Source: Desulfobaccales bacterium (GTDB taxonomy: Bacteria > Desulfobacterota > Desulfobaccia > Desulfobaccales > 0-14-0-80-60-11). Taken from it: DNA of 64,000 bases. Where the stretch lies: contig JBBFLF010000003.1 of NCBI GenBank assembly GCA_037481655.1, positions 62,001 through 126,000 of the forward strand, written 5' to 3'. Position 1 is the first letter of the stretch. Each line of letters opens with the position of its first letter. The notes beneath the pieces were generated by a model, which worked only from the letters and a program-made list of their open reading frames with translations, did no database searches and was not told the origin of the DNA. The translations under genes were made by a program, and so were the position numbers. Below are positions 3,389-46,629 of this stretch, one piece after another.

Positions 3389-3419
3389 AGTCGCTTCCTT
3401 GACCTGGGTGGCAAAAGCC

Positions 3420-29154: not shown

Positions 29155-29184
29155 GTGGCGGGGACGACGGGATTTGAACCCGCG
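29155..29184. repeat. Left attachment repeat (3' end of tRNA-Asp duplicated)
   Basis: A 30-base segment identical to 46551-46580, corresponding to the T-arm, acceptor 3' strand and CCA of tRNA-Asp. It is not a functional tRNA because the sequence diverges right after CGCG. It marks the left boundary of the integrated element. Confidence 0.92.
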
Positions 29185-29214
29185 CCCTTTTTTTCTAAGC
29201 TTCTCATATTCTTT

Positions 29215-30333
29215 TTAAATTTTAATTGGTTTTTCCTCTGCGGACGGCATATGGACGGTCGATATAGAATCGTCTTCGATCATGCCCCTCATGGCTTCCG
29301 TCACTAGTTTCCCATACCTCCTGAAAGCCGTAACCGTTTTGTGGCCCGTGGCCTCCATCACCATGCGCTCGGAGTAACTCGCCATAAGTTTCTGGGTAGC
29401 AAAGGAATGCCTGGTGCCCTGATAGGGGCTGATGTTGAGCCCTGCCGCCCGGGCTGCCTTTGTCCAGGCCCTCCGCACACTGGCGTATGAAAGAGGCCGG
29501 CCTTTCAGGCCGGTAAAGACAAAGCCCGACAAGGCTCGGGGCAGGGCCATAAGTGCCGCCTTGACTTGGGAGTTGAGGGGGATCTTCCTTACATCTCCCT
29601 CCTTGGTATACGGTTTCCATTCCCCCAGGTCCATGCTGGCCTTGATGGTGATGTAAGCCTGGCCCTTGAGATGGACGCAGTCCCAGGTCAGGGCCCTGGC
29701 CTCCCCGAGGCGACACCCCTGCTTCATGCACAAGAGAAACAGCGTCCGGTAAGGCTCCCGGCAGTTGGCCAAGATGCGGGCCTGCTCCTCCGGCGTGAGC
29801 CACTTGGTGTCCGGTTCCCTCTTGGGCACCCTGGGAAACTTGGGCATGACCGCGATGTCCTTGCGGTCCAAGGCTTCGGCCATGAGTTTGTGCAGCGCCC
29901 CCAGGATGTTCGTTACCGTCTTGGCCGACAGGTGTTCTGGGAGTTGGTTCCGGAAATCCTTGATGTGCCCGTCCCGGATGTCCCGGATGGACATCCGGCC
30001 AAAGAAGGGGACGAAATAGCTCCTGGAATACCGTTTGATTTCCCTGAAATAAGCTCGGCTGATGAGCCGCCGCTCCACCTCGGCTTGAAGCCTGGTGAGC
30101 CAAGCGGCCACATAGTTCTCGAACTGAAGTGACCTTATCTCCTTGGTGACGTATTCCTTGGGGTCGAACTTTCCCGCCCCGATCTGATGCCGGATGGTGG
30201 CCAGCAATTGCTCCGCCCTGGCCAACGAGTCCAGCGGGAAACCATACTGGTCGGTGTAAATCTTCTGTCGAGTGCCTTGATACCAGATGTAGATAGAGCA
30301 AGTCAAAAAAAATACCCTCGCATCTTCGAACAA
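29215..30333 (-). CDS. Tyrosine recombinase / phage integrase, N-terminus possibly truncated
   Basis: A 372-aa integrase. The N-terminal arm-binding and core-binding region (FDPKEYV..., FVPFFGRMSIRDIRDGHIKDF) is followed by the catalytic domain. Visible active-site motifs are Arg in GCRLGEARALTW, a Lys in the beta-hairpin, GTRHSFATQK (HxxR), TGHK and the nucleophile Tyr in FRRYGKL. It lies 30 bases inside the left att repeat and reads towards it, as expected for the enzyme that inserted the element. The first dozen or so codons (MFEDARVFFLTC) overlap antisense hsdM sequence and do not look integrase-like. The native start was therefore probably lost at the junction near 30,300. Confidence 0.9.
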   Translation of the reverse strand: MFEDARVFFLTCSIYIWYQGTRQKIYTDQYGFPLDSLARAEQLLATIRHQIGAGKFDPKEYVTKEIRSLQFENYVAAWLTRLQAEVERRLISRAYFREIKRYSRSYFVPFFGRMSIRDIRDGHIKDFRNQLPEHLSAKTVTNILGALHKLMAEALDRKDIAVMPKFPRVPKREPDTKWLTPEEQARILANCREPYRTLFLLCMKQGCRLGEARALTWDCVHLKGQAYITIKASMDLGEWKPYTKEGDVRKIPLNSQVKAALMALPRALSGFVFTGLKGRPLSYASVRRAWTKAARAAGLNISPYQGTRHSFATQKLMASYSERMVMEATGHKTVTAFRRYGKLVTEAMRGMIEDDSISTVHMPSAEEKPIKI

Positions 30334-31587
30334 AACGATGAGATCAGGCTTAAGCCTCGTAGTCTTGCTTACATTGTGAGCGAACTTCAGAAATATTCAC
30401 TACTGAGCACTCATATCGATATTAAAGGTAAGGCATATGAGGAGCTTGTGGGTGCAAACCTTCGCGGTGATCGTGGCGAATTCTTCACTCCCCGAAACGT
30501 CATGCACATGACCGTGGAGATACTCGATCCCCGTGATGATGAAAGGGTGCTCGACCCGGCATGTGGGACGGGCGGTTTTCTTGTTATTGCCATGAATAAG
30601 GTTCACGCTCGGCTCGAAGCACAGCTTATGAATGAACTGGGCAGGCTAAAAACCGAATGGAGGGACGAAGAGAAGAGGGTTTTTCAGGAACGCGTTCGGG
30701 AAATTGCTGAAAGCAATTTCTTTGGCTTCGACCTGAATCCTGACCTGGTCAAGGCCACCAAGATGAATATGGTCATGAACAATGACGGCAGTGGCAATAT
30801 CTTCCAGACTAATTCTCTGCTTCCGCCCCACGAGTGGGATGCAGACTTCCGACGCGACCTTGCCAAGGCTTTGGGAATTAAGGAATCCTCCATCAGAAAC
30901 GCCAGCTCTATCGGTTTCTTTGATGTAATAGTCACCAATCCACCCTTTGGCAGTAAGATTCCTATCAAAGACCCCCACATCCTTGGGCAATATGACCTAG
31001 CCCACATTTGGCGGAAGGATAAGAACGACCGAACCCGTTGGACAAAGACCAACAAATTGCAAAATTCAGTTCCGCCGGAACAACTCTTTGTTGAGCGTTG
31101 CATCCAACTTCTCAAGCCAGGCGGTAGACTCGGTATTGTTCTGCCGGATTCCATTCTGGGTTCGCCAGGCCTCGGTTACATCCGGCATTGGCTGATAAGG
31201 AATACCCAGACCATCGCCAGCATTGATCTTCACCTCGATACTTTTCAGCCAAGAAATGGCACCCAGACTTCGGTACTTATTCTTAGGAAAAAAACACTCG
31301 AACAGATACATGAGGAAGAACGAACCGGCCGAATGGCAGATTACCCTATATTCATGGCTGTTGTTGACCGCATCGGTCACGACAAGCGTGGCAATCCTAT
31401 TTTCAAGCGAGACAAACACGGAAATGAAATTCTTGTTCCGGAGACTGAAATCATTTCCATCGGCGAAATAGCCAATGGTTCCAAAACTGCCAAAGTTGAA
31501 TCAAAGCGCAAAGTTATAGATGACCAGACGCCCTTAGTGGTAAAAGCCTTTAAGAAGTGGTGGGAACAGGAAGGATTGTCATGGTAG
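30301..31587 (+). pseudogene. hsdM: Type I restriction-modification methyltransferase subunit, 5'-truncated hsdM
   Basis: Encodes the catalytic and C-terminal parts of HsdM, the N6-adenine methyltransferase of type I systems. It starts abruptly at KKYPRIFEQNDEIRL, which corresponds to the interior of the protein. Then come the invariant DVKG-like IDIKGKAYEELVGANLRGDRGEFFTPR, SAM motif I DPACGTGGF and catalytic NPPFG. The N-terminal helical domain of roughly 150-200 residues is absent; upstream codons (an open frame back to ATG 30187) are antisense to the integrase. It overlaps hsdS by 7 bases. No hsdR is present in the window. Base composition is much more AT-rich than the chromosome. Confidence 0.85.
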
Positions 31588-32411
31588 ATTCAAATACCGC
31601 CCAAAAGGCTATTTGTGCGCATCCTGTTGTTTCACCTGTTTTTCCCGAGGAGGAATTCCATTGGACAACGGTTCGCCTCCGAGAAGTGCTTGATCGAGGT
31701 TTGCGACTAGAGGGCAAGGTTTTCGGCATCGAGGGCAGGCATGCAAGGGAGACGCTGAAGCGTTGCAAATGGCCTATAGTTAGCGTCGGAGGCGAAAATG
31801 GTTTGGCGAAGTCCATAACAGTCCCCGGGAGAGTTAAACGTAAGTATCTTTCATCAGACGCCCCGGAGGCTATCGGATTCCTCGGAAGTTCTGAAATGCT
31901 TGATGTCAAACCTGTTCCTTATAAATGGGTTTTTAAAAATGAACCAAAATATCAGCAATTTAAAATCAGAGAAGGATTGGTTCTGATTTCCTGTTCCGGT
32001 ACTATAGGAAATGTCACTTATGTCTCAAAAACCCTTAATAATTTTATGATAAGCCAACATGCTATAAGAATCTCGGCAGACTTCCCCGGTTATATTTATG
32101 CATTTCTGAAGACCAGTATCGGACAAGCTCTTGTCAAAACAAATATGTATGGTGCTGTCGTTAGCGAAATAGAACCACATCACTTTGACAATGTCTTAAT
32201 TCCGGACCCACCACCAATCCTGAAAAAGCGCATCCATGACCTGATTTTGGAATCATATAAATTGCGGGACGAATCCAATGAACTTTTAGACCAAGCTGAA
32301 CAGCTTCTTTACTATGCTCTGAATTTACCTCCCATTGATAATATCAGGCCGCAATATTTCGACCCGTCTTTCGAAGTGCGCAATTTCATTGTGAAATTTG
32401 TCGCAAATTGA
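31581..32411 (+). CDS. hsdS: Type I restriction-modification specificity subunit, N-terminal half (frameshifted hsdS)
   Basis: 276 aa from ATG 31581 (AGGAAGG upstream, inside the hsdM end). It contains a first target-recognition domain with LVLISCSGTIGNVTYVS and NFMISQHAIRIS, then a conserved coiled-coil spacer (LILESYKLRDESNELLDQAEQLLYYALN). The frame ends at FVKFVAN-type codons near 32,400. There, dropping one T of an AAATTTG run would continue directly into the second ORF. It is either a natural half-HsdS that could pair with the next product, or a broken gene. Confidence 0.82.
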   Translation: MVDSNTAQKAICAHPVVSPVFPEEEFHWTTVRLREVLDRGLRLEGKVFGIEGRHARETLKRCKWPIVSVGGENGLAKSITVPGRVKRKYLSSDAPEAIGFLGSSEMLDVKPVPYKWVFKNEPKYQQFKIREGLVLISCSGTIGNVTYVSKTLNNFMISQHAIRISADFPGYIYAFLKTSIGQALVKTNMYGAVVSEIEPHHFDNVLIPDPPPILKKRIHDLILESYKLRDESNELLDQAEQLLYYALNLPPIDNIRPQYFDPSFEVRNFIVKFVAN

Positions 32412-33063
32412 TTGTCGTCTTGGCGCTACCTATCATGTCCCCATTGTGGACGCTATTTTGAAAAAGCTGCGAAAAGAAGCAGTCGAGGTTACCAGCATTA
32501 GCGACCCCCGCATTAGCAAGCGAATTATCTTACCTGGTCGTTTTGCTCGCGTCTACGTCCAGGAAGGACAAGGGACAGTCTTCTTTGGGGGTAAACAAAT
32601 CTTTGAACTTGACCCTTCCAACAAGAAGTATCTGTCGCTAATCCATCATAGCAAAAGAATCAAGGATCAACTCCGGCTCGAAAAGAATATGGTTCTGATC
32701 ACATGTAGCGGAACAATAGGAAGGGTCACGCTGGTGCCTGAGCATTGGGAAGGATGGACTGCAAATCAACATATTATTCGGGTTGTGCCGTCATCCGATG
32801 AAATAGCGGGCTACCTTTATGTCTTCTTAACTAGTGATTATGGGCGTGAACTCATTACCCGTTTCACTTATGGAGCCGTTGTTCATGAGATAGATGACCG
32901 CCATGTAAGCCAGGTAGCCGTTCCTTTGCTCAAAGACAAATATGTTCAGCACGAAATCAATCGCATTGCCCTCGAGGCAAACGAAAAACGAACCCAAGCC
33001 TACTACGCCGAGCAGCAAGCCATACGTATAACCAACGAGGAAGTGGTCCATGCTGAATCATAA
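32398..33063 (+). CDS. hsdS: Type I restriction-modification specificity subunit, C-terminal half (frameshifted hsdS)
   Basis: 221 aa carrying the second target-recognition domain. SQIDCRLGATYHVPIV matches the usual RLDAxYHxP start of the second half. MVLITCSGTIGRVTLV and ANQHIIRV parallel the first TRD, and FTYGAVVHEIDDRHVSQVAVPL parallels MYGAVVSEIEPHHFDNVLIP. It begins at an in-frame TTG inside the end of the first half, a 14-base overlap in another frame. The 229 bases after it are AT-rich with no gene that I can support. Confidence 0.8.
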   Translation: MSQIDCRLGATYHVPIVDAILKKLRKEAVEVTSISDPRISKRIILPGRFARVYVQEGQGTVFFGGKQIFELDPSNKKYLSLIHHSKRIKDQLRLEKNMVLITCSGTIGRVTLVPEHWEGWTANQHIIRVVPSSDEIAGYLYVFLTSDYGRELITRFTYGAVVHEIDDRHVSQVAVPLLKDKYVQHEINRIALEANEKRTQAYYAEQQAIRITNEEVVHAES

Positions 33064-33292: not shown

Positions 33293-33691
33293 CTATTTTT
33301 TTAATAGTTCCAAATCATAAAAACTAATGTCCTCAGATTTCATCACACAGTTCACAATGGCGCTGATGGTTTGATGTCTTAATTCGGCCATTTTTATAAC
33401 ATCACCAACTATGAATAATCTCATCAATTGTTTAGGATTAAAGCGGTAAATAGTGTAAAATTGAACCCAGGTCTTTAATTTAAAAAAGTCTTCATTTGGT
33501 CTTAAAACATATATATTTATTAAATAATGACACCCTTCTCTTTCGGGCCTAGAATTTCGCTGAGAAGTGGTCTTACATGTAAGGATAGGGTCGTCGGGAC
33601 CGGGATTATTGATAATGATGAATAACTTATCGGCTATTCCCCCATCAGAGAATTGATAATTTTTATGTAAAAAGACTGTTCCCCGTTTCAT
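33293..33691 (-). CDS. Uncharacterised partner of the Panacea-domain gene (candidate toxin)
   Basis: A 132-aa basic protein of no recognised family. It begins MKRGTVFLHKNYQFSDGGIADKLFIIIN, a pattern (basic N-terminus, hydrophobic beta-strand, DKLFIII) reminiscent of small beta-barrel toxins of the PemK/MazF type, though that is a weak visual likeness. CKTTSQ and GCHYLINIYVL follow. Its start overlaps the stop of the Panacea-domain gene by 4 bases, the arrangement expected of a toxin-antitoxin pair. The strong AT bias differs from the chromosome. Confidence 0.7.
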   Translation of the reverse strand: MKRGTVFLHKNYQFSDGGIADKLFIIINNPGPDDPILTCKTTSQRNSRPEREGCHYLINIYVLRPNEDFFKLKTWVQFYTIYRFNPKQLMRLFIVGDVIKMAELRHQTISAIVNCVMKSEDISFYDLELLKK

Positions 33692-34272
33692 TTATCAAAT
33701 AATGATTTCACTTCCCGCATTTCATTTATTCTCTCTTTAGCTTCCGCCAAAGATAAAGAATCAACTTTATCATCTATGGCTAATAAATAATCTATTTCAG
33801 CATTTTCACCCTTGGTATTGATCGTCTTATCCCATGGCATATTAGGCAAATGTGAAATATCAGTCATATCATCTGCCTGGGCATCCCTAAAAATTTCTGC
33901 TAATTGCTCCATTAACCTAATTTCTCTTTTACTGAAATAACGCTTATCAAAATTGCATCGCGGAACCATTTTAAAGAATTCAAAGTTTAAGGTCTTTTTT
34001 GGGATATAAATACACTTAGTCAGGTCTTCACCGGGGTTATTAAGTTCAAAGAATAAATCCTTGGGAACCGGCCCCATTTCCCAGGCATAATACTTCAGGC
34101 CGGTTACTGATTTGGCGGTTTGTTTAAAATGCAGAAAATCGAGAAAATAAAGCAACTTGAACAGCTTAAGTTTCCCACAATACCTCGTATTTCTTAGGAA
34201 AAATATGATCGCATGGATCAATTTCTCCCGAGAAAAATCAATCAAAACCGGCTGATTTTCATTAATGCGCAT
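33688..34272 (-). CDS. Panacea/SocA-like (DUF4065) domain protein, candidate antitoxin
   Basis: 194 aa. The N-terminal two-thirds match the Panacea (DUF4065) domain: KLIHAIIFFLRNTRYCGKLKLFKLLYFLDF, then KYYAWEMGPVPKDLFFEL with the hallmark Y-x(3)-GPVP segment. Panacea-domain proteins act as antitoxins for many unrelated toxins, and SocA is a ClpXP adaptor-type antitoxin. It is the first gene of a two-gene minus-strand operon and overlaps its partner by 4 bases (ATGA). Confidence 0.85.
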   Translation of the reverse strand: MRINENQPVLIDFSREKLIHAIIFFLRNTRYCGKLKLFKLLYFLDFLHFKQTAKSVTGLKYYAWEMGPVPKDLFFELNNPGEDLTKCIYIPKKTLNFEFFKMVPRCNFDKRYFSKREIRLMEQLAEIFRDAQADDMTDISHLPNMPWDKTINTKGENAEIDYLLAIDDKVDSLSLAEAKERINEMREVKSLFDK

Positions 34273-34599: not shown

Positions 34600-35331
34600 C
34601 TAAATCGATCTGAGGAATTTTTCAGCCAAGGCCGCAATCTCCTGGGCCCGGTCCAGGGCGCTGATGCACCGGCGGGCGTTTACGAAGTCGGCCTGTCGCT
34701 CGTTGATGAAGTCTATCAGCTTTTTGCCGGTGAATGCCCCCGTGCGGAACCCGTCCACCAGGATAAACAGGGCGATCTCCGGCTCCAGGGCCAGGTCCGG
34801 CTGCCCCACCAAGTCCTTCCTTATTATCCGGGCATACTTCTCATAGTTAGCCCGGCCGGTGATCTGAACATACCCCCTGCCGCGGTAGCGGTAGCCGTCC
34901 CCGGGTTGCGTGTTTCCCAGGTCCCGTCGGCCCTCATACTTCTCGAAATATGACCTGGGCCCCCTCTCATGGATGGGCTGGAATGTCCCCCCTGTCTCCC
35001 ACTCCACCGTGGCCAGCACATAGGCGATCTGCGCCGGCAAGGAGAGGCCCTGCTTACGGCACTCGGCAATGATGGCCGCGATGGTCCCCTCCCGGGTGGA
35101 GAAATCGTAAGGCTGGCCCTCCGGAACGGACGCTCTCGAGTCATCCGGCACTACCTCCAGATACTCCGCCGCTACCCAGCCGACCGTGCCGTCCTCCAGT
35201 TCCACCGGCACCCAGCCTGTGGTGTCCAGGGGGTCAATGACATCCCCCCGGGACAGGGTGCCCTCAATGGGGAAGCGCTTCCCGGGCCCCCCACGAATAT
35301 TTAAGTGGTTAGCCGTTACTCGGAGAGGCAT
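34600..35331 (-). CDS. Phage endolysin: bacterial SH3 domain plus GH19 chitinase-like lysozyme
   Basis: 243 aa. Residues 1-60 form a bacterial SH3 domain ([22 protein letters not shown]...[22 protein letters not shown]) that probably binds the cell wall. The rest is a GH19/chitinase class I-like fold used as a muramidase: [61 protein letters not shown]. The catalytic Glu is likely in VEWETG. ATG 35331 has AAGGTGAG upstream and overlaps the preceding small gene. It is the last gene of a lysis cassette. No signal peptide is present, so export would need a holin. Confidence 0.88.
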
Positions 35332-35515
35332 CACTCACCTTCATGGCTGGCAGTCTCAGCCAGAACCCCACCTCATATTTCCGAGGGAAGGCCAACTCGT
35401 TCACCAGCCCGTCCCGGTCCATTCGGATAGGGCCGCCTTCCATCTCGGGGTGCTCCACCGCGAGGAGGACTGACCCGTCCTCCAGGTGTTTAAGCAGAAG
35501 CACCGGCCTGTCCAT
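35309..35515 (-). CDS. Small phage protein in the lysis cassette
   Basis: 68 aa, starting [26 protein letters not shown] directly after the holin-like stop (TAA-ATG adjacent), with GGAGG as ribosome site. It overlaps the endolysin start by 23 bases. No recognised domain; it is a mixed beta-type small protein ([23 protein letters not shown]). Tight coupling to both neighbours supports a real gene. Confidence 0.7.
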
Positions 35516-36017: not shown

Positions 36018-36374
36018 TCATCCTTTCCCCCTCACCACGCCCCCGCTGGGGTCATGGTAGTGCCGGTTCAGAGCGTCCCACAGGTCCCGGTTGTCGGCTT
36101 TGAGCTCCTCCCGGCCCTTCTTCCACTCCAGGAACTCAGACCGGGGAATAAACATATCGGTCAGAGAAATACGGCAGGTCATCTGAAACTCTCTGATCCC
36201 CTTTAGCTCCGCCTTGATCTCCGCCAAATCGGCCTGGATATGCTTGAGGTCGCCATTCCCGCCATTTCCGAAGACTTTCTGGCCGTATTTGAGGATGGCC
36301 AGGATGATAACTCCGCCTGCCACGGCCATGGCAAACACCGCTAGGAAGACCGGATGATTGCTGGCCTCCATCAT
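36018..36374 (-). CDS. Small membrane-anchored coiled-coil phage protein
   Basis: 118 aa with one N-terminal transmembrane helix (VFLAVFAMAVAGGVIILAIL) and then a charged helical region (DLKHIQADLAEIKAELKGIREFQ) likely to form a coiled coil. It is similar in design to spanin-like or tail-associated small proteins. Its start overlaps the speD-like stop by 4 bases. The first two codons are both ATG. No family assigned. Confidence 0.65.
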   Translation of the reverse strand: MMEASNHPVFLAVFAMAVAGGVIILAILKYGQKVFGNGGNGDLKHIQADLAEIKAELKGIREFQMTCRISLTDMFIPRSEFLEWKKGREELKADNRDLWDALNRHYHDPSGGVVRGKG

Positions 36375-36820
36375 CCACCCCCCAGCACCCGCCGTTCCCG
36401 GTCCATGTAGCCCTGCACCACCGCCAGATTGCGGGGGAATTCCAGACCGCGGTTGGTCAGCTTCAGGTGATAATGGCCGGCTTTAAACCAGCTCTCAGAG
36501 AACTCCACGGCGGCGGCGATGTCGAATGGCTTGCAACTGAACAGGTCAAGCGCGGCAAAACCCTTCTCTGGCCAGGTATGAATGCTCACATGGCTTTCGG
36601 CAATCATCACCACACCCGAGATGCCGCTGTCCTCATGACCAGGCAAGGGCCTATATTTGAAGACGTAGGGAGGCATGATCTTGGTCATCCCCAGAATATC
36701 CGGGGCGCGGTCCAGAAACTCATAGACCGCATCAAGATCGGCCAACACCATCGGGTCGCACTCATAAAGGTCCACCTTCAGGTGCGGCCCAAGCGCTTCG
36801 GCAAAGTCTGTCGCCCTCAT
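36371..36820 (-). CDS. speD: S-adenosylmethionine decarboxylase proenzyme homologue (SpeD family) on a mobile element
   Basis: 149 aa of the prokaryotic SpeD class 1B. The self-cleavage site that makes the pyruvoyl cofactor is intact: AESHVSIHTWPEKGFAALDLFSC, cleaved between Glu and Ser. The Cys in LFSC is the expected proton donor. Chromosomal SpeD makes decarboxylated AdoMet for spermidine synthesis. Homologues on phages and elsewhere have been shown in some cases to decarboxylate ornithine or arginine instead, so the substrate is open. No speE (spermidine synthase) is adjacent. It overlaps the next gene by 4 bases. Confidence 0.88.
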   Translation of the reverse strand: MRATDFAEALGPHLKVDLYECDPMVLADLDAVYEFLDRAPDILGMTKIMPPYVFKYRPLPGHEDSGISGVVMIAESHVSIHTWPEKGFAALDLFSCKPFDIAAAVEFSESWFKAGHYHLKLTNRGLEFPRNLAVVQGYMDRERRVLGGG

Positions 36821-36839: not shown

Positions 36840-39800
36840 TTACAGCAATGCGCCTATTTCATAGAATTTCTGTGCCTTTTTGCGTTTCTCCTTCTGCATG
36901 AGCATGTCATGTAAGGTTGACGCCTCCTGGTCCTTGACATCCCGGGCCTTTTTCTTAGTCACGAGCAGACCAGCTATCGAGCTCTTATCTTCCTCACCTG
37001 TTCCTTTCGGCTCATAGGTGACTTCACGGCGAGCCTTCCGGAGCAGGGTCTCCACCAGTGTGTCCCGGTCATCGCGGTCCATATCCTGCCACCTGCGCCC
37101 CTGGAACTGCTTGAAAGCCTCATAGGTCTGGCGGGCCGTCAGCTCATAGTAATCTTCCGGTCTCCAAGGCTTGCGGATACCTTGTTCCAGGCGGTAGCTT
37201 GGAGGCATTTTCACCGTAGCCGCGGCCTCCGTGGACATAAAGGCGTTGCCCAGGCGAGCCAGCTCCACCACCCGGGCGTCCAGGGCTTCCAGCTTCACCC
37301 GCTTCTGCTCCGGCGTCAGAGCCTTGCTAGCATAGACCTGCTGGCGCTCTTTTTTGACCTTGCTCAACTCGTCCATAATCTTCCGGGCCACCCGGGCATA
37401 CATGGCCTCGGGGTGCTCCTCCAAAAACTGCTCCAGCCTGGCTTTGTCGCCGGATTGCCAGAGGGTCTTCCAGCCCTGGTCGGCCAGCAAAACCTCCTGA
37501 TAGCGCTCAAAGAAGTCGTTGACGCTCTTGGCTCGCCAGCCCGTCGGCGGCTTGGTGAAGAAGGTGCGGACCCCCCAGACCTGCTGGATTTTGTCTTGGG
37601 CTGGCTGGGGAATATCCTCTACCATCCCTGTCTTGCGTAGGAGGAGGTCGATCCCGGGCAGGAAGTAGTTGGCCCCCAGGCCGCCCGTCCATTGGCGGAT
37701 GAAATGCTCCATTTGCACCGGCGAAATGTCCGTCAGCCTGCCCACGGCCTTGGCGGTCTCCGTGGTCCACGGCTTGGCCCGCAGACCAGCGGGGAGGCGC
37801 TGGAGGCTGATGTCCTCTATGGGCCTACCGCGGAAGAAGTCATAGTTGGCCTTGGCCTCGATGTAGGGCCGGGCTATGGTAGGGATGATCTCCGGGGTGG
37901 CCGCATCCCAGGCGGCGGCCATGGCAGACTTCACGCCCTTGGGGTCCTTGGTGAGCATGGCTTCCACCAGGCGCTCCGCCACGGAACCGAACAGAATGCC
38001 AGCCTCGAAGGGCTTGGGAATCCGTAAGAGGGGAGCATTCTTTCCCAGGGGGAGGTGCCAGAAGTAGTTGCGCTCCCAGTCCTCCAGCTCTTTGTAGCGG
38101 TCGTCATCACGGGCCAAGAGATAAATGAGCACTGATACCCCAGCCAGCATGGCCAGCCGGCGGGCCACCGCCTTGCGGTTAGGGCCGGTGAGTTCCGTGG
38201 CCAGCTTGTCCATGCCCTGGACGGAGGCGTTCCAGAAGGGAATCGTCACGTTCAGGTAGCGCACCGTTGGGTGGCCCCCGGCCCGGCTGAAATCCAAGGT
38301 GGTGCGCCTGGCCTCGTGGATGGCCTCGGCATGGCTCAGGCCCTTTTCCCTGGCCTGTTTGTAGATGGAAAACCTGGTTAGGTTCTCCAGGTAGGCGGAG
38401 GCATAGCGCAGGGCGTGCAGGGGATTGGCGAAGTATTTTACCTGGCTCTCTTTGCCTTTGAGGTAATCCGCCGTGATTTTCTCCGGCTCCACAAAGCTCT
38501 CAGCCAAGGTGGCCATGGGCCCACCGCCGGATTCCCACTGCCGATAGAACTCCATGGTGGCCGGATCTTTGGAAATCAGCAGATAAGCATCCCTAAACCA
38601 CTTGAGTGGGTTGAAGCCGAAACGGGAGAATATCCAGGCTTGGATGATGTCCCGGATTGGGTTGCGGCCCAAGGAGAATTCCGGCACCAGGATGGCCCCG
38701 CTCCGGAGCATGTCCGCCGGAATGCGGGCAATCTGCATCAGAATACCCATCTCGGCCGGCATTAAGTTCTGGGCGGCAGCATAAAGGTCTGGCGGCAGTT
38801 TCAGCCACCGCCGCTTGCCGTCCCGGTAGTAGGGTACGCAGCCGGGCTCCGGCGGCAGGGGCGAACGGGCCCAGACCCGGTTCTGGAAATCCATCAGGCC
38901 GGCTCGGGCGGAAGGCCGGAAGGTCAGTAGGGGCCTCAGCAGGTCGTGCTGGTTCAGGAATTGCTCGAAAACCGCCGTGGTCTCCGGGGCCACCGCCCTG
39001 GCGGTTTCCCGGTCTGTAATGTAGCGGTTGACAAACTCCGCCACCTGCTCTGTCTTCTTCCGGACATAGCGCTTGAAAGATTTGCTGTCAGCTTCGCTGG
39101 CCCGTTGGTCGGCAATGCGCCGGAGCTCCCGCCGCATTTCCGGGGTGCCCCGCTCAATCAAAAGCCCCACAAGGTCATATTGGTCGTCAATGGCATGGCC
39201 GAGTTCGTGAGAGAGGGTCTTCTCACTGGTGGCAAACCGTAGTCTGATTTGGCCAGCAAGCTCTTCAGAAATCAGGCCCTCGGCCACTTCCTCCTTGAGC
39301 ATCCGGCTGAATTCCCCCAGCCTCCGCCCCCGCAGGGTGGCCACCACCTTCACGTCCACCTTGAGTTCCCGGGCCAAGTCCAGAAGCTCCTGGCGAAGCT
39401 GAGCATCAATCTCCTGCTTCTGGTTAAAGTCCACCGGCACATACTTGGCGGGAACCTCGTAGACTTCGGCGTCCTCGTAGGCCTTGCCGGTGATGTACGC
39501 CGCCCGATAGACCTTGTTCCGGGCGTAGGCCCACTGGGCCTTGTAGGCCAGTTCAATCCAGGTCTGCAAGGGGGAGAGAATCTGCTTTTCGGAACCCTTG
39601 ATCTGCTTGATGACGTTGCTGGACACGCCCTGGGCGGCCAGGTGCGCCGCTATGTAGTCATTGGTCTGGTCCAGCAGACGCTTGAAGGGGGCATAAAACT
39701 GGTTTTTCGCCTTGATTGCCTTATAGGTTAATTCGTCAATGAAGCCCACCTGGAGCAGGGGCTGTAGGTTCATCTCATCGGACCACTCCAGCAAGGAAAG

Positions 39801-42800
39801 GCCGGTATCCATCAGCACGCGCAAGTCATCGCCATATTTGCGTGTCAGGGCGGCGAGAACCGCCTTGCTTTCCTCCGGATGGACCCCCTTGATTTCGCCC
39901 GCCATCCGGTTGCCGAACTCCCCGGCCAGCTCAAGGTCGCGCTGGGCCACCAGGAAGACCTCGAAGTCGTCCATCACCTCGTCCACCGTCTGGCCGCGTC
40001 GTTTTGCCAGTTCCCGCAACGGCTCCAGCCGGCGGTTGAAACTGGGGCCCTTGCGAACCAGGTCGTCGCCGGTGAACACCACCTCTTTCAGGTCGGGGTC
40101 AAAGTCCATCCGGTCCTGATAGACATACTCGCCGGTCAGGCCCTGGCGCACCCGGCCTTCCACCCCCCGCATGAAGGAGAGGGCGTTGGTGATGTGTTCC
40201 CCGTGCGGCACCTTGGCCCCGGCCCGGACGGCCCGCTCCGCCAGTCTCTCCCAGGCTGCCCACCGGTCCACCACTTGGTCATAGAACCTTTGGGCCTTTT
40301 CCACCAGCTTGTCTTTGAGACCCTTGGCGGTGGAGACTACATCCCGGGACTCCCGAGGCTCCGTCGGGGCCAGATATTTTTCCCGGTAAGCCTCAATAGC
40401 CTCCTGTTCCTTTGGACGGAGAGAGTACTTGGGGGTCTTGCCTTTTTGCCCGGGAGAAACTATATTTTCAACAGAAAGTTTGCTTTGGCCCTCAGCGTCC
40501 GGGGTTCCTTTCTCCGGCCCTTGCGGAAAGGAGCTTAAAGAGGGGGCTATGCCGGGTTTAGCCGCAACGGGTACGCGCCGTTCCCAAAGCAACTCGAATT
40601 TTTCAATATACTCAGGTCGTCCCAACCACGCAGATTTAATCGTGTAGAAATCTTCTGCTTCTCCCGGGGTCAACTCAATCGCCGCAATTTTGTTTAAGCC
40701 GTTCGGCTTTACCAACAGTAGAGCGGCTCCTCCTCCCTTCCTGATTTGAACATAGTTGGCTGCCACGTCATGAATAAAGGATTCCACATTGGGGTAGCCC
40801 AGTTTTAGAATTTTCTTCTCGTGCCTGGCTTTGATATGGATTAACCCAAAACCGCTCCGGGCTTCCTCTTTTCCCACCTGCAATCTGACAGGTCCGGCTT
40901 GCCTGCGGATGATCTGCGCCGCTTCTTTGTCAACTTCCCCGAAGTTTATGGACCCGTCGGGAGTTTTGACAAAATCCTCCGGCAAGTTACCCGTCTTCTC
41001 ATAATTCGCTGTGCCTCTCACTTTGTAACGGATGGGCTCCCCGAATACGTCCTCCTCCCGGGGCCGCCGCTGCCAGACCTCACCTCTTTCAATCCGTCGG
41101 AATGTGCCCTCCCAGGTGGGCCGGAAGGCCTCCCAAATCTGCCGGAAGAAGTCCAGAATTTTCTGAAAGATGCTGTGGGGTTTCTCAGTCGGCTTCCAGG
41201 TTTCATACGCCCGGGCCGCGGCTTCCCAGTCGCCGAACTCCTTGAGGATGGCCTGGCGCTCCTTGTCGGTCAGCACCAAGTCCGCGGCGGCATGAAACAC
41301 CTCGTGGCGCAGGGTCTGCCGGCCCTCACCTTTGGCCAGGGTGATGATGCCGCCGCCGTCGATGACCTGCCACGCGCCGGCGAGCACATAATCCTCGGCA
41401 TTTTGCTGGATACCCCTGATGTCCTCCTCTGAGTATCCAGCCGCTCGGAGAGCCGCCGCATCCGGCAAGAGAATGTCACCATTCAGGCGAATAGCAATCT
41501 CAAGGCCTTGGTGGGGCAGGAGCACTCGGTAGCCGTCAAAAAATCGCGCCCGTCGAACCTCCAGGCCGGGGAAGGCCGCCTCCACCATCTCCTGGGTGAC
41601 CTTGCCCTCCTCACCGGCAGGGCTTATAATTTCTTTAGCCCCTGCTCCCATGGAGGGACGAAAACGCGTAGGCCCTTCATGCGTAGGCTTGGCGGAACCG
41701 TACACTTCCCCAGGTTCACCAGGGGCTCCTTTCCAGCCGGTCAAAAGCCATGTCTCCCTTTCTCCAAACCGGTATTTGGAGAGAATGGCGACATGGTTTT
41801 CAAAGCCTATTTCCACCCGCTTGCCCTCTTCCGGCCCTGATTCTTTGCGGATATCTCCTTTGGCGATGACCTCCACCATTTTCCGGGCGATGGCCTCGCC
41901 GTCCTCGCCCTCAGCGTTCCGCTTGGCGATGATGTGGGTAACCCCATAGCCGCCCTTGAAATCCTTCTCCGGGTTCCCTGGCTTGCCCCAGTAAAACGAG
42001 ATGTCCCCCAGGTCCTCCCGCCACATGGCTCCCGGCACGTCCGCGTGCTCGGCAATAACCCGCTCCATGGCCTCCCGGCCCCGGCGAATGTTTTCGTCAA
42101 CGGTCAGACGATACTTTGGGGAAGTTTGTTTGGAAGTCCCGTAATATTCCTGCAAAATGTCCTTCCGTATCGGCTTGCCTTGCTCCAAAGCTTTATCTAT
42201 TGCAACGTTGTGCCAGAGATATTCCCTCCCCAAATATTTTTCGACATTCCCGATATTGAATAACCACACATGATTGGCTAGTTTTCCTTCCTTCCTGTTA
42301 CTCGGTATGGCCATATATTCCTGCAAGGCCTTCTGCTTAGCCTTGCTATCTTCGTTACGGACCTCTGGCCACGCTTCAACAGTAAATTCGACTTCTCTGC
42401 CCGCAGGCTCCAGCTTTGTAGGGAAGGTGATTATGGCGTAGGTTTCCCCAGAATCACTGACAAGGCGGGTGAATTTGATAGGGTCGCCTGGCTTGCGCAA
42501 GGACGCCGCAAGAAATTCGCTTGCGGTCATTTCGTGGGGCAGGGGGGCGAACGCTGCCTCGCCGCCCGCTTCATTTAAGACATCTTTGGGGACAGGTTTT
42601 CCGGACAGATATGCCGACCTTACTGCATTAACCTGGTCCTCCTCCCAATTTTTATGTAATTCACCACTACTCCACTTCCTGATGCTCTTGTATTCACCCT
42701 TGGTCATCTGCCAAGGTTCTTTCTCCCTGACTCGATCAAGCCATTCTGTTAATGCTTTCTCTGCGCTCTCCAAATCCCGGAGCCAGCTTCTCGGGATTAC

Positions 42801-43553
42801 CGCATGACTTTCCCAGGTTTTGTCAGCCGCTGGCACTGGTATGATGTGTTTATAATCCACATCCCTATTGGTGACATGAATTCCTTGGGGCGTTCTCCTG
42901 ACAGTGAAACCAATAGAGTTTGCCAACCTCTTGAGCCGTTCATACGCCTGACTCATCTCCTGAGGAGTGGCCCGGTCTGGCCCTTCTTTCTCTTTGGTCT
43001 CTTTTTCACCCTCTTTGATTTCCTTAGTAACCTCCTGTTCTTTCGGGGCATTCTCTGTCTGTTTAGTCCAAAAAGCAACAATCTTCTCATAGACTTGTGC
43101 TGGCACCCAGCCATGGAGAGGATACAGTATCATTTCCGTCCGACCGTCTTTCAGAGAGTCAACTGTCAACCTGCCGAAAGGAAAATAGAAAGTATATGCG
43201 AAGTTGGAGTTTTTACCGGTATCAACATATTTGGTTGGTATGGGTTGGTTCCCCGTGCCATGTTTGATGTCAGAGTCTGGGAACAGGTCAATAGCAGATT
43301 GACTAAAATAATTATATTCACCGGTCTTCTTGAGTTGAATAACCATGCGGGATGGTAATTTCAGTCTTGCGAAATAGAATCCCAATTCCGGTTTCCATTC
43401 CAGCCTTGCGAGTAACCATTTGAATATTTTAGGAACGTTATACTGTTCAGCTCCTTGTGTGATTTCAGCCTTAGTCGGCCATCCTTGAGGTGGTTCTGTG
43501 GCATCCTCTTTTTTTGTACCCACAAATTCATTTTCCTTCTTCCACCCCACCAA
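36840..43553 (-). CDS. Giant phage polyvalent protein (about 2,237 aa) with two HExxH motifs, PBECR-like nuclease and LPD38-like regions
   Basis: A very large multidomain protein of the phage polyvalent class, which are packaged in virions and injected with the DNA. Visible regions: a zinc-protease-like LRHEVFHAAADLV at about residue 750; a probable barnase/EndoU/ColicinE5-like (PBECR) nuclease at about 890-990 (GFGLIHIKARHEKKI ... DFYTIKSAWLG); a second metalloprotease motif LSHELGHAIDDQYD at about 1,450; and an LPD38-like segment at about 1,620-1,790 (LGRNPIRDIIQAW, FSIYKQAREKGLSHAEAI, TLDFSRAGG). A hydrophobic helix (MLAGVSVLIYLLA) and a helical C-terminus follow. The start is uncertain: the frame is open a little above ATG-like 43553 and overlaps the 139-aa ORF in another frame. 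The two may be one protein interrupted by a frameshift. Confidence 0.82.
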   Translation of the reverse strand: MVGWKKENEFVGTKKEDATEPPQGWPTKAEITQGAEQYNVPKIFKWLLARLEWKPELGFYFARLKLPSRMVIQLKKTGEYNYFSQSAIDLFPDSDIKHGTGNQPIPTKYVDTGKNSNFAYTFYFPFGRLTVDSLKDGRTEMILYPLHGWVPAQVYEKIVAFWTKQTENAPKEQEVTKEIKEGEKETKEKEGPDRATPQEMSQAYERLKRLANSIGFTVRRTPQGIHVTNRDVDYKHIIPVPAADKTWESHAVIPRSWLRDLESAEKALTEWLDRVREKEPWQMTKGEYKSIRKWSSGELHKNWEEDQVNAVRSAYLSGKPVPKDVLNEAGGEAAFAPLPHEMTASEFLAASLRKPGDPIKFTRLVSDSGETYAIITFPTKLEPAGREVEFTVEAWPEVRNEDSKAKQKALQEYMAIPSNRKEGKLANHVWLFNIGNVEKYLGREYLWHNVAIDKALEQGKPIRKDILQEYYGTSKQTSPKYRLTVDENIRRGREAMERVIAEHADVPGAMWREDLGDISFYWGKPGNPEKDFKGGYGVTHIIAKRNAEGEDGEAIARKMVEVIAKGDIRKESGPEEGKRVEIGFENHVAILSKYRFGERETWLLTGWKGAPGEPGEVYGSAKPTHEGPTRFRPSMGAGAKEIISPAGEEGKVTQEMVEAAFPGLEVRRARFFDGYRVLLPHQGLEIAIRLNGDILLPDAAALRAAGYSEEDIRGIQQNAEDYVLAGAWQVIDGGGIITLAKGEGRQTLRHEVFHAAADLVLTDKERQAILKEFGDWEAAARAYETWKPTEKPHSIFQKILDFFRQIWEAFRPTWEGTFRRIERGEVWQRRPREEDVFGEPIRYKVRGTANYEKTGNLPEDFVKTPDGSINFGEVDKEAAQIIRRQAGPVRLQVGKEEARSGFGLIHIKARHEKKILKLGYPNVESFIHDVAANYVQIRKGGGAALLLVKPNGLNKIAAIELTPGEAEDFYTIKSAWLGRPEYIEKFELLWERRVPVAAKPGIAPSLSSFPQGPEKGTPDAEGQSKLSVENIVSPGQKGKTPKYSLRPKEQEAIEAYREKYLAPTEPRESRDVVSTAKGLKDKLVEKAQRFYDQVVDRWAAWERLAERAVRAGAKVPHGEHITNALSFMRGVEGRVRQGLTGEYVYQDRMDFDPDLKEVVFTGDDLVRKGPSFNRRLEPLRELAKRRGQTVDEVMDDFEVFLVAQRDLELAGEFGNRMAGEIKGVHPEESKAVLAALTRKYGDDLRVLMDTGLSLLEWSDEMNLQPLLQVGFIDELTYKAIKAKNQFYAPFKRLLDQTNDYIAAHLAAQGVSSNVIKQIKGSEKQILSPLQTWIELAYKAQWAYARNKVYRAAYITGKAYEDAEVYEVPAKYVPVDFNQKQEIDAQLRQELLDLARELKVDVKVVATLRGRRLGEFSRMLKEEVAEGLISEELAGQIRLRFATSEKTLSHELGHAIDDQYDLVGLLIERGTPEMRRELRRIADQRASEADSKSFKRYVRKKTEQVAEFVNRYITDRETARAVAPETTAVFEQFLNQHDLLRPLLTFRPSARAGLMDFQNRVWARSPLPPEPGCVPYYRDGKRRWLKLPPDLYAAAQNLMPAEMGILMQIARIPADMLRSGAILVPEFSLGRNPIRDIIQAWIFSRFGFNPLKWFRDAYLLISKDPATMEFYRQWESGGGPMATLAESFVEPEKITADYLKGKESQVKYFANPLHALRYASAYLENLTRFSIYKQAREKGLSHAEAIHEARRTTLDFSRAGGHPTVRYLNVTIPFWNASVQGMDKLATELTGPNRKAVARRLAMLAGVSVLIYLLARDDDRYKELEDWERNYFWHLPLGKNAPLLRIPKPFEAGILFGSVAERLVEAMLTKDPKGVKSAMAAAWDAATPEIIPTIARPYIEAKANYDFFRGRPIEDISLQRLPAGLRAKPWTTETAKAVGRLTDISPVQMEHFIRQWTGGLGANYFLPGIDLLLRKTGMVEDIPQPAQDKIQQVWGVRTFFTKPPTGWRAKSVNDFFERYQEVLLADQGWKTLWQSGDKARLEQFLEEHPEAMYARVARKIMDELSKVKKERQQVYASKALTPEQKRVKLEALDARVVELARLGNAFMSTEAAATVKMPPSYRLEQGIRKPWRPEDYYELTARQTYEAFKQFQGRRWQDMDRDDRDTLVETLLRKARREVTYEPKGTGEEDKSSIAGLLVTKKKARDVKDQEASTLHDMLMQKEKRKKAQKFYEIGALL

Positions 43554-43780
43554 AATGCTAGATTCTGACGGGAACCGGTGATCTCATGCACGTAAATGTT
43601 ACCGTCGGCATCCTGTTTGATAATGCCGACATGCTTTGTTCCTCCAGCAAGGCCACCCAATACAGGCGCATAGTAGACTACCCTGTCCCCTAAATTGAAA
43701 CCGGCCTCCTGCAAGCGTTTAAGCTCCGCTTCACGGCGAGGGGCCCTCTCAGCCTCAAGCGCATCTCTGTATTCTTTCAC
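43361..43780 (-). CDS. Short phage ORF overlapping the giant protein, probably its N-terminal part
   Basis: 139 codons from GTG 43780, overlapping the upstream gene's stop as GTGA. Residues 1-75 (helix AERAPRREAELKRLQEAG, then GDRVVYYAPVLGGLAGGTKHVGIIKQDADGNIYVHEITGSR) look like a real domain. The last 50 residues look like out-of-frame reading of the giant protein. The most economical view is that the domain belongs to the N-terminus of the 2,237-aa protein and a frameshift lies near 43,545-43,590. A programmed frameshift or two separate genes are alternatives. Confidence 0.55.
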   Translation of the reverse strand: MKEYRDALEAERAPRREAELKRLQEAGFNLGDRVVYYAPVLGGLAGGTKHVGIIKQDADGNIYVHEITGSRQNLAFWWGGRRKMNLWVQKKRMPQNHLKDGRLRLKSHKELNSITFLKYSNGYSQGWNGNRNWDSISQD

Positions 43781-46353
43781 CCTCCGGTTGTGTATCTCTG
43801 TGAGCCGTTTCTGGCCGACAAGTTCTTCAACCTATTGAAGACCTCCTGGAGGCGCACCCGGCTACGGGCATAGGCGTTGAACAGGTGTAGCAGGTCCACC
43901 ACTATTGGGTCTGTCTCACCCAAGAACTTCACCCGAGCCAACCCGTCCTCAAAATTGAGCCCCGCCTCCCGGATGTCCTGAAGGATTTCTGCGGCCTGGG
44001 CCAGTTGGGGGGCTATGCCCACATCGAAGCGGTCACCATTTCGGATCTGCTGCTCCAGCTTGGCCATGCGAGGGGCCACCATCGCCAAGGCGCCGGTAAT
44101 GTTCCGCAGGCGGTCATCGGTTCTTTCTGCCAGCAATTCCAAAGCACCGCTCTTGCCGTAAGCGGCCGCAAAAAGGGCATTGCGGATACGGTTCAGACCA
44201 GCTTGGTTCAGATTGCCGTCAGCGGTATAGTAGTTGGCCAGCTCATTGGGCGAGACAATCCTCTGCATGAAAGCCCTGATGAACGGAGCATTGGCCGTGG
44301 TGTTGATCTCCCCCCGGTCATTGGGTTCAAAAAGCGAGAGGATGTCGGTATGGAGCAGAGCCCGGGCATCATTCTGGGCCTGCTCCATGGGGCTAAAGGC
44401 GGCGGTAGACGCCAGGTTGAACTCCCTTGCAAGGACTACCCTTTCCTCCGGCCTCACCTCTCCTTGCCGCACCCGCACCAGCACAGGCTTCTGTGTCGCC
44501 TTGATAGCCTCCGGGTCCAGGCCGAATTCGGCAGCATGGTCAATCAGCCACTGCTTATACCGCCGCGCCTGTTCCCGATTGGCTTTATAGGCCCGACGTA
44601 GAGCGATGGTGCGGGCATTGCCGGACTCCACAATGCCGTCTGGGCCCACGATGGGAGCACCGTCCGAAGCCAGAGGGTTGTCTCCCAGAAGTTCAGGCCG
44701 CAGGTTGTTCTCTATGCGGCTGATCTGAAGTTCCGAGGCTGCCCGCGTGCGGTCCCGCGGCTGTAACTCCTGAGGGAATGCGGGGTTCTCATTAAGCAGG
44801 TCATCATGGGACGTGACCAGGGCATCCACGTCGAGGACCGCAAAGCGTGTGGGAACCTCCCGGCCGGTAGGGGTGATGGCCACAGATTGCCGGCCTTCGC
44901 TAATTGATTCCGGGGTTGCCTGCGTTTGGCTTGTGGGCTCCGAAGGTTTCGTTATGGGTTCTACCACCAAAACAGGCATAAGTTCGAGCCCCATGGCCTT
45001 GGCCACTAGCGCCCGGTGCCGGCCTTCATGGGTTTTGGTGGCAATATCCAGGATAGGCAAGGGCATTTGCTTGCCCTGTTCAACCCTTGTAGCGTATTTC
45101 CTCACTAGATTTTCATCAAAGGTGGTTCGGCCTGCTTTATCTAAAAATGCGTCTGGGGCCATGTATTCGATGCAACCTACAATCCCCTTTTCTCTGGCGA
45201 AATATTGAGGATTTTTCAAAAGGTTATCGTAGTAGGGCATGTCAGTGGTTTGAAGATTGAATGGTTCCCGAGGAACCTGGGGCCCTCTCGTAGGAGGGGG
45301 CTCCGGCACAATAGTTTCTGGCTCTGGGGCGGGCGGTCTCGGGCCAGCCGCCAACCCGGCAATGGTTCTGTCTGCTCTGGAAAGCAGGTGATAATTCTGC
45401 CGGATCAGCTCATGCAGTTGCCGAGCCGCATCCAGGTCACCCGCATCCTCAACCCTGCGGTAAAGCTCCTCTACCCGGGTTGCCAGAGGCCCCAACCTGC
45501 TTTCGCCAGCCTCCGGCAGGCTGAACAATCTGAGGACCTCCGGTCTGTGTGCGGTAATCAGGCTCTGGACTTCCAGGGCCGCCCGTGGGTCACCCTCTTC
45601 ATCCAACCGCCGGAAGAGTGTTTCCAGCCGGCGCATGAAGTCTGGTTCCCCGCCTGCCAGCCGCTCATCCCTCACCAGGTCCTTGATCTCGCCGGCGCTC
45701 TGCGTCATGGGCTGCGACGCCAGGCGGTGCAGGTGTTCCCAGTTCAGTTGGGTCAAACCTTGCTGATTGGCGGCCAGAAGCTCATGTAACTGCCTGGCTG
45801 CATTTACATCACCGGTCTCTTCCACTTTGCGGTATAGCGCTTCCACCCTGTCCGCTAGAGGCTTTAGTCCCTTGCCAACCGCCGGGTCAGGCGACCGAAA
45901 GGCCTCCACCACCTCAGGCCGGTGGGCCAGAAGCAGGTTGTGAATTTCCTGGGCCGCCCTGGGATCGCCGGTCTCATCCACCATCCGGAAGAGGGCGTCC
46001 AGTCTCTGCACCAAGGGCCGACCCTCCGGAGGCATCATGGGCCGCCCGGTCAGGTCCAGGGGCCGGGCCGTCCTCTCGGGCTCTGTCAAGGGAGCTTCAC
46101 GCAGGAGGTCGGCCTCCAGGTCGCCCATAGGCGGCACCGAAGGCTGCTCCGGCACCGGGATGGGTTCGGCGACGGCGGCGGCAGGAGTCGGCGTAGTCCG
46201 GTAAGTGGGCGAGGTTTCAGGCAGTCTGGCAATCCGTTCAGCTTCCGCCTGTCGAGCCGCTTCTTCAGCTCGGGCTCTGGCCGCGGCCTCCATGGCCGCC
46301 AGCCCTGCCGCCGCGGTGGGGCCGGTACGAGGTGAAGTAATCCCCTCTGGCAA
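43777..46353 (-). CDS. Large phage polyvalent protein with ParB-like and DdrB-ParB-like domains
   Basis: 858 aa from TTG 46353. The N-terminal 100 residues are low complexity, rich in Ala/Glu/Pro. Then come four related repeats of roughly 60-80 residues (LDALFRMVDETGDPRAAQEIH, ALYRKVEETGDVNAARQLHE, TLFRRLDEEGDPRAALEVQ, ELYRRVEDAGDLDAARQLHE). A ParB-like segment follows (HEGRHRALVAKAMGLELMPV). Last is a long DdrB-like ParB-superfamily domain (NNLRPELLGDNPLASDGAPIVGPDG, ESGNARTIALRRAY). Such domains occur in polyvalent proteins of temperate phages and plasmids. The weak TTG start only 200 bases from the right att repeat suggests that the native N-terminus may have been lost. The 198 bases between start and repeat hold nothing recognisable. 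Confidence 0.8.
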   Translation of the reverse strand: MPEGITSPRTGPTAAAGLAAMEAAARARAEEAARQAEAERIARLPETSPTYRTTPTPAAAVAEPIPVPEQPSVPPMGDLEADLLREAPLTEPERTARPLDLTGRPMMPPEGRPLVQRLDALFRMVDETGDPRAAQEIHNLLLAHRPEVVEAFRSPDPAVGKGLKPLADRVEALYRKVEETGDVNAARQLHELLAANQQGLTQLNWEHLHRLASQPMTQSAGEIKDLVRDERLAGGEPDFMRRLETLFRRLDEEGDPRAALEVQSLITAHRPEVLRLFSLPEAGESRLGPLATRVEELYRRVEDAGDLDAARQLHELIRQNYHLLSRADRTIAGLAAGPRPPAPEPETIVPEPPPTRGPQVPREPFNLQTTDMPYYDNLLKNPQYFAREKGIVGCIEYMAPDAFLDKAGRTTFDENLVRKYATRVEQGKQMPLPILDIATKTHEGRHRALVAKAMGLELMPVLVVEPITKPSEPTSQTQATPESISEGRQSVAITPTGREVPTRFAVLDVDALVTSHDDLLNENPAFPQELQPRDRTRAASELQISRIENNLRPELLGDNPLASDGAPIVGPDGIVESGNARTIALRRAYKANREQARRYKQWLIDHAAEFGLDPEAIKATQKPVLVRVRQGEVRPEERVVLAREFNLASTAAFSPMEQAQNDARALLHTDILSLFEPNDRGEINTTANAPFIRAFMQRIVSPNELANYYTADGNLNQAGLNRIRNALFAAAYGKSGALELLAERTDDRLRNITGALAMVAPRMAKLEQQIRNGDRFDVGIAPQLAQAAEILQDIREAGLNFEDGLARVKFLGETDPIVVDLLHLFNAYARSRVRLQEVFNRLKNLSARNGSQRYTTGG

Positions 46354-46550: not shown

Positions 46551-46580
46551 GTGGCGGGGACGACGGGATTTGAACCCGCG
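46551..46580. repeat. Right attachment repeat (3' end of intact tRNA-Asp)
   Basis: A 30-base sequence identical to 29155-29184. Here it forms the T-arm, acceptor strand and CCA of the intact tRNA-Asp, so the element inserted into the tRNA 3' end and regenerated it. Confidence 0.92.
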
Positions 46581-46629
46581 ACCTCCGGCGTGACAGGCCG
46601 GCGTTCTCACCGGGCTGAACTACGTCCCC
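46552..46629 (-). tRNA. tRNA-Asp (anticodon GTC)
   Basis: The acceptor stem GGGGACG pairs with CGTCCCC, the D-arm is GTTCAGCCCGGTGAGAAC, the anticodon arm is GCCGG-CCTGTCA-CGCCGG with anticodon GTC, the T-loop is GGTTCAAATCCC, the discriminator is G and CCA is encoded. It serves as the integration site of the adjacent element. Confidence 0.95.

Follow-up and report, generated by a model that had tools for sequence, protein, structure and literature searches.

A SpeD-family gene directly before the lysis genes of a defective Desulfobaccales prophage, probably encoding an arginine decarboxylase

The window analyzed here (the whole stretch of 64,000 nucleotides from a Desulfobaccales contig) contains a prophage of 17.4 kb, which is bounded by two copies of a 34-nt direct repeat that are 97% identical and lie 17,396 bp apart: attL at 29155–29188 and attR at 46551–46584, the latter inside the 3' end of the tRNA-Asp(gtc) gene that is the integration target (46552–46629, minus strand; ARAGORN). 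The core of the repeat occurs twice in the whole genome. At the left end of the element lies a tyrosine integrase gene (29215–30333, minus strand; Pfam Phage_integrase, 2.3e-19), whose product shares 82% identity with its counterpart in a sister prophage, and beyond it an N-terminally short N6 methyltransferase gene with two specificity-subunit ORFs (30187–33063, plus strand; Pfam, PADLOC). The alignment of the methyltransferase to its best model covers only the C-terminal portion (positions 288–715 of 723), and no restriction subunit was detected among the element proteins scanned with Pfam and PADLOC. A SocA/Panacea-domain gene and, next to it in the same orientation, a 132-aa ORF (33293–34272) are a possible toxin–antitoxin pair, and a 14-nt tandem repeat of the AGTCCAAAGCCCAA type is found at 46638–46700, just outside the tRNA gene.

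The remaining genes discussed here all lie on the minus strand and, in the order of that strand, encode the N-terminal part of a giant protein (43777–46353; Pfam ddrB-ParB, 4.7e-38); a 139-aa ORF between the two giant-protein fragments that has no family match (43361–43780); the C-terminal part of the giant, virion-type polyvalent protein, of 2237 aa (36840–43553; Pfam LPD38, 8.4e-41, and PBECR1, 1.9e-12, the latter a nuclease-like domain); a SpeD-family proenzyme (36371–36820); a 118-aa membrane/coiled-coil protein, the first of the lysis cassette, which has a hydrophobic peak at residue 9 and homologues in both L070 and L197 (36018–36374); a holin-like membrane protein of 134 aa, recognized by its hydrophobic segment, its position and its sister-phage homologues (35516–35920); and an endolysin with SH3 and GH19-like parts (34600–35334; Pfam SH3_3; PHROG 181 endolysin, 1.9e-35).

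In sister prophages from the same taxonomic order, the ddrB and LPD38 parts form a single ORF, the length of which runs from 4361 to at least 4866 aa. The LPD38/PBECR1 part in the window is 81% identical to the 4361-aa sister ORF over 1539 columns, and the two fragments cover sister residues 74–912 and 2811–4346, while residues 913–2810 have no counterpart in the window. Furthermore, the region upstream of the giant gene holds virion genes (head-closure, head-tail adaptor or others) in a sister prophage (G003:C29) and in the 42-kb viral contig of L070, and nine proteins encoded in these structural regions match nothing in the window. The element is a defective, deleted prophage, in which integrase, attachment sites and lysis genes are kept and the head and tail module is gone; the present role of its SpeD in phage growth is consequently moot.

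The SpeD gene itself is an intact ORF of 149 aa, and its product contains the pyruvoyl-forming site ESHVSIHTWPE. It matches Pfam AdoMet_dc (E 3.4e-30) and exceeds the cut-off of the NCBIfam AdoMet decarboxylase equivalog TIGR03330 (86.1 bits, cut-off 75.65). Ser76, His81 and Cys96 align with S63, H68 and C83 of the Thermotoga maritima AdoMet decarboxylase (AdoMetDC) and are invariant in our alignments, and an AlphaFold2 model (pLDDT 86) superimposes on the T. maritima structure 1vr7 with a Z score of 17.9 (2.4 Å, 116 residues). By its AdoMet_dc domain, class 1b fold, pyruvoyl serine and catalytic histidine and cysteine, the protein fits the SpeD class 1b superfamily. Its gene starts about 20 nt beyond the giant gene and its end overlaps the 118-aa membrane-protein gene by 4 nt. 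Much of the original prediction is borne out by these data: a complete SpeD with the expected site lies on the minus strand, ORF and family scores being in agreement; it is part of a mobile element, as the repeat at the tRNA-Asp gene and the integrase indicate; its gene overlaps that of a small membrane protein by 4 nt, which probably couples the two; and the element lacks speE, the genome's sole spermidine-synthase match lying on another contig (C4).

The host genome has three SpeD homologues: that of the window, one on contig C24 that is 52% identical to it, and one on contig C25 that is 27% identical. The window protein and the C24 copy belong to a widespread subfamily marked by a shared 'MTKIMPPYVFKY' stretch (MTKIMPP) and a DRGLEFPR-like end; Desulfobacca and Desulfobaccales MAGs are among the closest named genomes that encode a member of it. 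SpeD relatives were found in 41 of the 59 genomes searched, and many genomes of the same order have one copy of each chromosomal type. The C24 copy is not beside speE, and it also scores above the TIGR03330 cut-off. As to the remainder of the polyamine genes, the spermidine synthase family found on C4 is present in 28 of 29 genomes of the order; on contig C6 an agmatinase gene, with a product above the TIGR01230 cut-off, adjoins a deoxyhypusine-synthase-like (SpeY-like) gene; and LysA is the only protein of the genome with the PF02784 (Orn/Arg decarboxylase) fold. The host may have other arginine decarboxylase (ADC) families (OKR-type, PvlArgDC).

A genome scan yielded 342 confirmed relatives, and gene neighbourhoods of the MTKIMPP subfamily were counted for the best 80 of these (L084–L163). 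An agmatinase (SpeB) gene was present in the flank of 27 of these best 80 loci, in 24 cases on the same strand and no more than 400 bp downstream of SpeD, and a spermidine synthase (SpeE) gene in none of the 80. The three flanking SpeB proteins that were scanned (L153, L105, L158) all scored above the TIGR01230 agmatinase cut-off. SpeY was found at one of the best 80 loci, L158, where SpeD, SpeY and SpeB stand together; this row is the cluster type of the assayed SpeD-family arginine decarboxylases (SpeDA), the genes of which are reported, in the accessible text of Li et al. 2023 (PMC10407285), to sit in clusters with speB and speY. A control set comprised 20 loci from relatives in the phylum: 14 with SpeDs of other type, three of the subfamily and three of the C25 type. 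Among the other-type loci, 10 of 14 had SpeE within about 3 kb (two of these 10 also had SpeB); the subfamily loci had SpeB in all three cases and SpeE in none, and the C25-type loci had SpeB or SpeE in none of three. In two genomes (G055, G056) SpeB neighbours the MTKIMPP copy and SpeE the other one, and in a third (G044) the MTKIMPP copy stands by SpeB and the other copy has neither neighbour. In genomes of the host order, SpeB does not adjoin the subfamily gene; clustering of the SpeDA type (with SpeB or SpeY, not SpeE) holds for the subfamily but not for the window locus, which is that of a phage.

Residues that may bear on the substrate were also compared. We scored the sequences for P-x-G-[any]-[S/T] ahead of the ESH site, and determined that this motif is present in 14 of the 16 other-type SpeDs that could be scored (5 of the 21 remained unscored as the pattern was unmatched) and absent from all 97 subfamily members, the window protein included. 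The two exceptions are the SpeD of pelagiphage HTVC201P, an assayed ADC, and that of its sister HTVC121P. In the portion of PMC10407285 available, a proline conserved in AdoMetDC is described as not conserved in SpeDA; the proline of the P-x-G motif may be the one named there. Conversely, the catalytic strand of the window protein, HTWPEKGFAALDLFSC (HTWPE..AALDLF), is closer to that of the T. maritima AdoMetDC than to that of its own subfamily (HTFPEK.YLSLDIFSC). The window protein has a glutamate (that of ESH) and an isoleucine where the C25 copy of the host has glutamine and phenylalanine. Diagnostic residues of SpeD-type ornithine decarboxylases (SpeDC) are given as Gln, Thr, Phe and Tyr in the text seen of PMC10407285, and with the positions taken from that partial text, the window protein lacks them at its Glu and Ile. 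The C25 copy (L003:1462–1863, plus strand), which keeps the P-x-G motif, carries AQSHISFHTWPEFGY, resembling the SpeDC diagnostics.

For phylogenetic placement, 135 sequences were extracted, of which 102 were different; rows shorter than 125 aa and L041–L043 were excluded, and the outgroup rows, L083 and the speH_1 of phage MaAM05 were left out as long branches, resulting in an unrooted tree of 97 rows. This replaced a first, rooted tree in which the window protein stood at the base, a position due to the distant outgroup. In the unrooted tree the window protein pairs with that of L070 (support 93/89), both on long branches; nine phage copies including it form a clade (90/94), which is sister to the 21 copies of the host family (87/76). 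The AU test does not reject a constrained tree in which the window protein is placed with the host family (p 0.226). The phage clade falls short of firm support; the window protein groups with phage genes and not clearly with the host copy.

Subfamily SpeDs are encoded on 13 viral contigs. In five of the 13, genes for a membrane protein and for an endolysin or holin come immediately after SpeD (L070, L073, L036/L074, L076, L077; lysins by Pfam), and three have it after capsid-region genes (L034, L035/L072, L075); the other copies, by eye, lie near ribonucleotide reductase genes or elsewhere, in a count that leaves aside the surroundings of L038/L079 and L040/L082. L070 belongs to the same phage group as the window element, as its LPD38 protein is 57% identical, its holin and membrane protein are matched and its SpeD is in the same place; this phage has structural genes. 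Intact SpeDs are also found in the same slot of L073 and of L197, a prophage from another family of the phylum, in which the membrane-protein gene follows. In G123, the genome that holds L197, no other SpeD was found, and the congener G046 yielded none. The gene for the 118-aa membrane protein is present in sister phages without an intact SpeD as well. A scan of viral contigs for LPD38 relatives returned nothing, although L070 and L073, which were found via SpeD, carry such proteins. The presence of SpeD right before the lysis genes in apparently different phage backbones points to a link between late infection and the supply of agmatine or polyamines; in part, the position could reflect a general preference of cargo genes for the gaps that separate late modules. 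In a separate case, Microcystis phage MaAM05 (L169, MW495066) has the row speH_2-speH_1-speE-speB, a near-complete polyamine route, in which speH_1 resembles the MTKIMPP subfamily.

Nine LPD38 elements have a readable slot, and their contents vary: four hold an intact SpeD (the window, L070, L073, L197), three a relic-like ORF and two (L054, L198) neither. The three relic-like ORFs, which come from sister prophages (L049:16653–17048, plus strand; L051:3981–4376, minus strand; L053:5086–5568, plus strand), look like catalytically dead SpeDs. In the alignment, the L053 ORF has Gly, Met and Asp at the positions of Ser76, His77 and His81 and retains the cysteine. When 1292 ORFs were searched with a profile, those of L051 and L049 came first after the true SpeDs, and that of L053 ranked directly under two unrelated ORFs; against the L197 SpeD, each of the three beat 1000 of 1000 shuffles, which the 117-aa ORF of L054 did not. 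Against five other SpeDs, the shuffle scores of the slot ORFs were not significant or only marginal. A single-sequence model of the L053 protein (pLDDT 57) had the T. maritima AdoMetDC as its best match at second look (Z 7.0, 4.1 Å, 103 residues), tied with ribosomal protein S6 permutants (Z 6.9), and Z scores below 8 may reflect a common arrangement; Foldseek gave no significant match for this model. The aligned stretches between slot proteins and SpeD are short, hhalign gave probabilities of 2% and 0.04%, Pfam assigned no family, PHROGs returned insignificant matches only, and a viral scan with the L053 protein found no relatives. We conclude that the L049, L051 and L053 proteins are likely catalytically dead SpeD relics. 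The dead AdoMetDC prozyme of trypanosomes tunes its partner. By analogy, one might speculate, on long odds, that the slot is a SpeD-fold locus that switches between active ADC (window, L070, L073, L197) and fast-diverging dead relics, and that the dead forms might pair with host SpeDA subunits and tune polyamine output at lysis.

Taken together, we favour with reasonable confidence the interpretation that the window SpeD is a phage-borne, pyruvoyl-dependent L-arginine decarboxylase (SpeDA), a cargo of the late module that feeds the host agmatinase and is misnamed AdoMetDC by family models. We read the subfamily as SpeDA because of its SpeB neighbourhood without SpeE, the absence of the P-x-G motif, and the reports on gene clusters and on the proline in the available part of PMC10407285; this reading has against it that the window copy passes the TIGR03330 equivalog cut-off and has the AdoMetDC-like strand. 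Arginine specificity, which the original prediction had listed among several possibilities, is accordingly the best supported of them (27 SpeB and no SpeE among the best 80 of 342 relatives; P-x-G absent), and the substrate is probably arginine, not AdoMet. The proenzyme would cleave itself at Ser76 and convert arginine to agmatine and CO2; the host agmatinase (SpeB) would turn agmatine into putrescine, and longer polyamines might come from SpeY, the deoxyhypusine-synthase-like protein encoded beside the agmatinase, or from SpeE. SpeD is presumably a late gene: it comes after the gene of the giant virion protein, and its 4-nt overlap probably couples its translation to that of the lysis cassette, so that it could raise agmatine and polyamine supply as DNA is packaged and lysis is set. 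The phage might benefit through polyamines for packaging, or through a shifted use of arginine and protons at lysis; we infer both the late expression and the benefit. In the present genome, the gene would be an additional copy of an ADC gene, whether expressed or silent.

A true AdoMetDC, with which the phage would raise decarboxylated AdoMet for host SpeE and hence spermidine, is suggested by the TIGR03330 and AdoMet_dc matches, the T. maritima-like strand, the presence of SpeE in the host and the phage AdoMetDCs described in the accessible part of PMC9992855, yet we regard it as unlikely given that SpeB stands beside 27 and SpeE beside none of the 80 subfamily loci counted (the best of 342 relatives), and that the P-x-G motif is absent from the window protein and present in the C25 speD of the host. 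An assignment as AdoMetDC by elimination, from host SpeE and the SpeDC-like C25 copy, had been considered and was dropped on the SpeB-linked neighbourhood. Ornithine is a very improbable substrate: phage SpeDC enzymes do exist, as far as PMC9992855 was available, but the window protein has Glu and Ile against the Gln and Phe of the C25 copy, residues that resemble the diagnostics in the part of PMC10407285 seen, and the subfamily goes with agmatinase, for which an ornithine decarboxylase has no need. That the enzyme depletes AdoMet near a restriction–modification system as an anti-methylation device, as had been proposed, is hardly tenable. Methyltransferase and specificity ORFs do lie about 3 kb away in the element, and L070 has a weak methyltransferase-like match about 4 kb from its SpeD; nevertheless, the substrate is probably arginine, the subfamily occurs with agmatinase and never, among the loci counted, with SpeE, the methyltransferase is partial, the scanned element proteins include no restriction subunit, and no restriction–modification cluster was evident, by eye, beside the other intact phage SpeDs whose flanks were read.

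The gene could also be a captured host housekeeping gene without a phage role, left behind in a decaying prophage. The nearest cellular relatives of the window protein are the order's own copies (at most 56% identical), the element has no structural genes, and grouping with the host family is not rejected. We nonetheless find this doubtful, since the window protein groups with that of L070, a related phage with structural genes and SpeD in the same slot, since intact copies occupy the same slot in L073 and L197, and since no speD other than the prophage copy was found in G123. Clustering with a host speD next to speE, which the original prediction had named as the sign of capture, was not found, as the phage copies form a clade (90/94) and the host copy of the subfamily is not beside speE; the part that stands is that a grouping with the host family is compatible with the data (AU p 0.226). 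The phage-borne arginine decarboxylase remains our preferred reading.

These results have implications beyond the prophage. As the neighbourhood links the MTKIMPP subfamily (the host C24-type copies, L084–L163) to agmatinase, its members are probably misannotated as AdoMetDC by family models, and errors at the AdoMetDC step may affect the polyamine pathways annotated in many genomes. If the subfamily is indeed SpeDA, TIGR03330 does not separate AdoMetDC from ADC activity.

Among known systems, the SpeDA enzymes of PMC10407285, as described in its available text, resemble the window protein in their class 1b fold, the conserved Ser, His and Cys, their speB or speY clusters and possibly, as read here, the proline difference, and also in their occurrence in Woesearchaeota and Melainabacteria-like genomes, whose members that text reports to be ADCs; they differ in that the window gene is on a prophage beside lysis genes and is known here from its sequence. 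The T. maritima AdoMetDC (1tlu, 1vr7) shares the fold and the catalytic residues, but is 39% identical to the window protein; it carries the P-x-G motif, and the MTKIMPP stretch is missing from it. The SpeDs of cyanophages (e.g., S-PM2), assayed as AdoMetDC according to the accessible part of PMC9992855, are likewise phage auxiliary genes of the family, but belong to another subfamily, are 33% identical to the window protein and in some cases lie near DNA-polymerase clamp genes. A search of the literature at the level of titles found no paper on SpeD beside lysis genes or on pyruvoyl ADCs in phages or prophages. The SpeD homologue of pelagiphage HTVC201P, an assayed ADC that the part of PMC9992855 seen describes as a separate emergence, is, like the window protein, phage-borne and without the P-x-G motif; the two proteins align at 16% identity, and the HTVC201P gene adjoins exonuclease and ribonucleotide reductase genes, not lysis genes. 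Phage SpeD-type ADCs are already known, as the available text of PMC9992855 records, and the window case is distinct from them in its subfamily and in its link to lysis genes.
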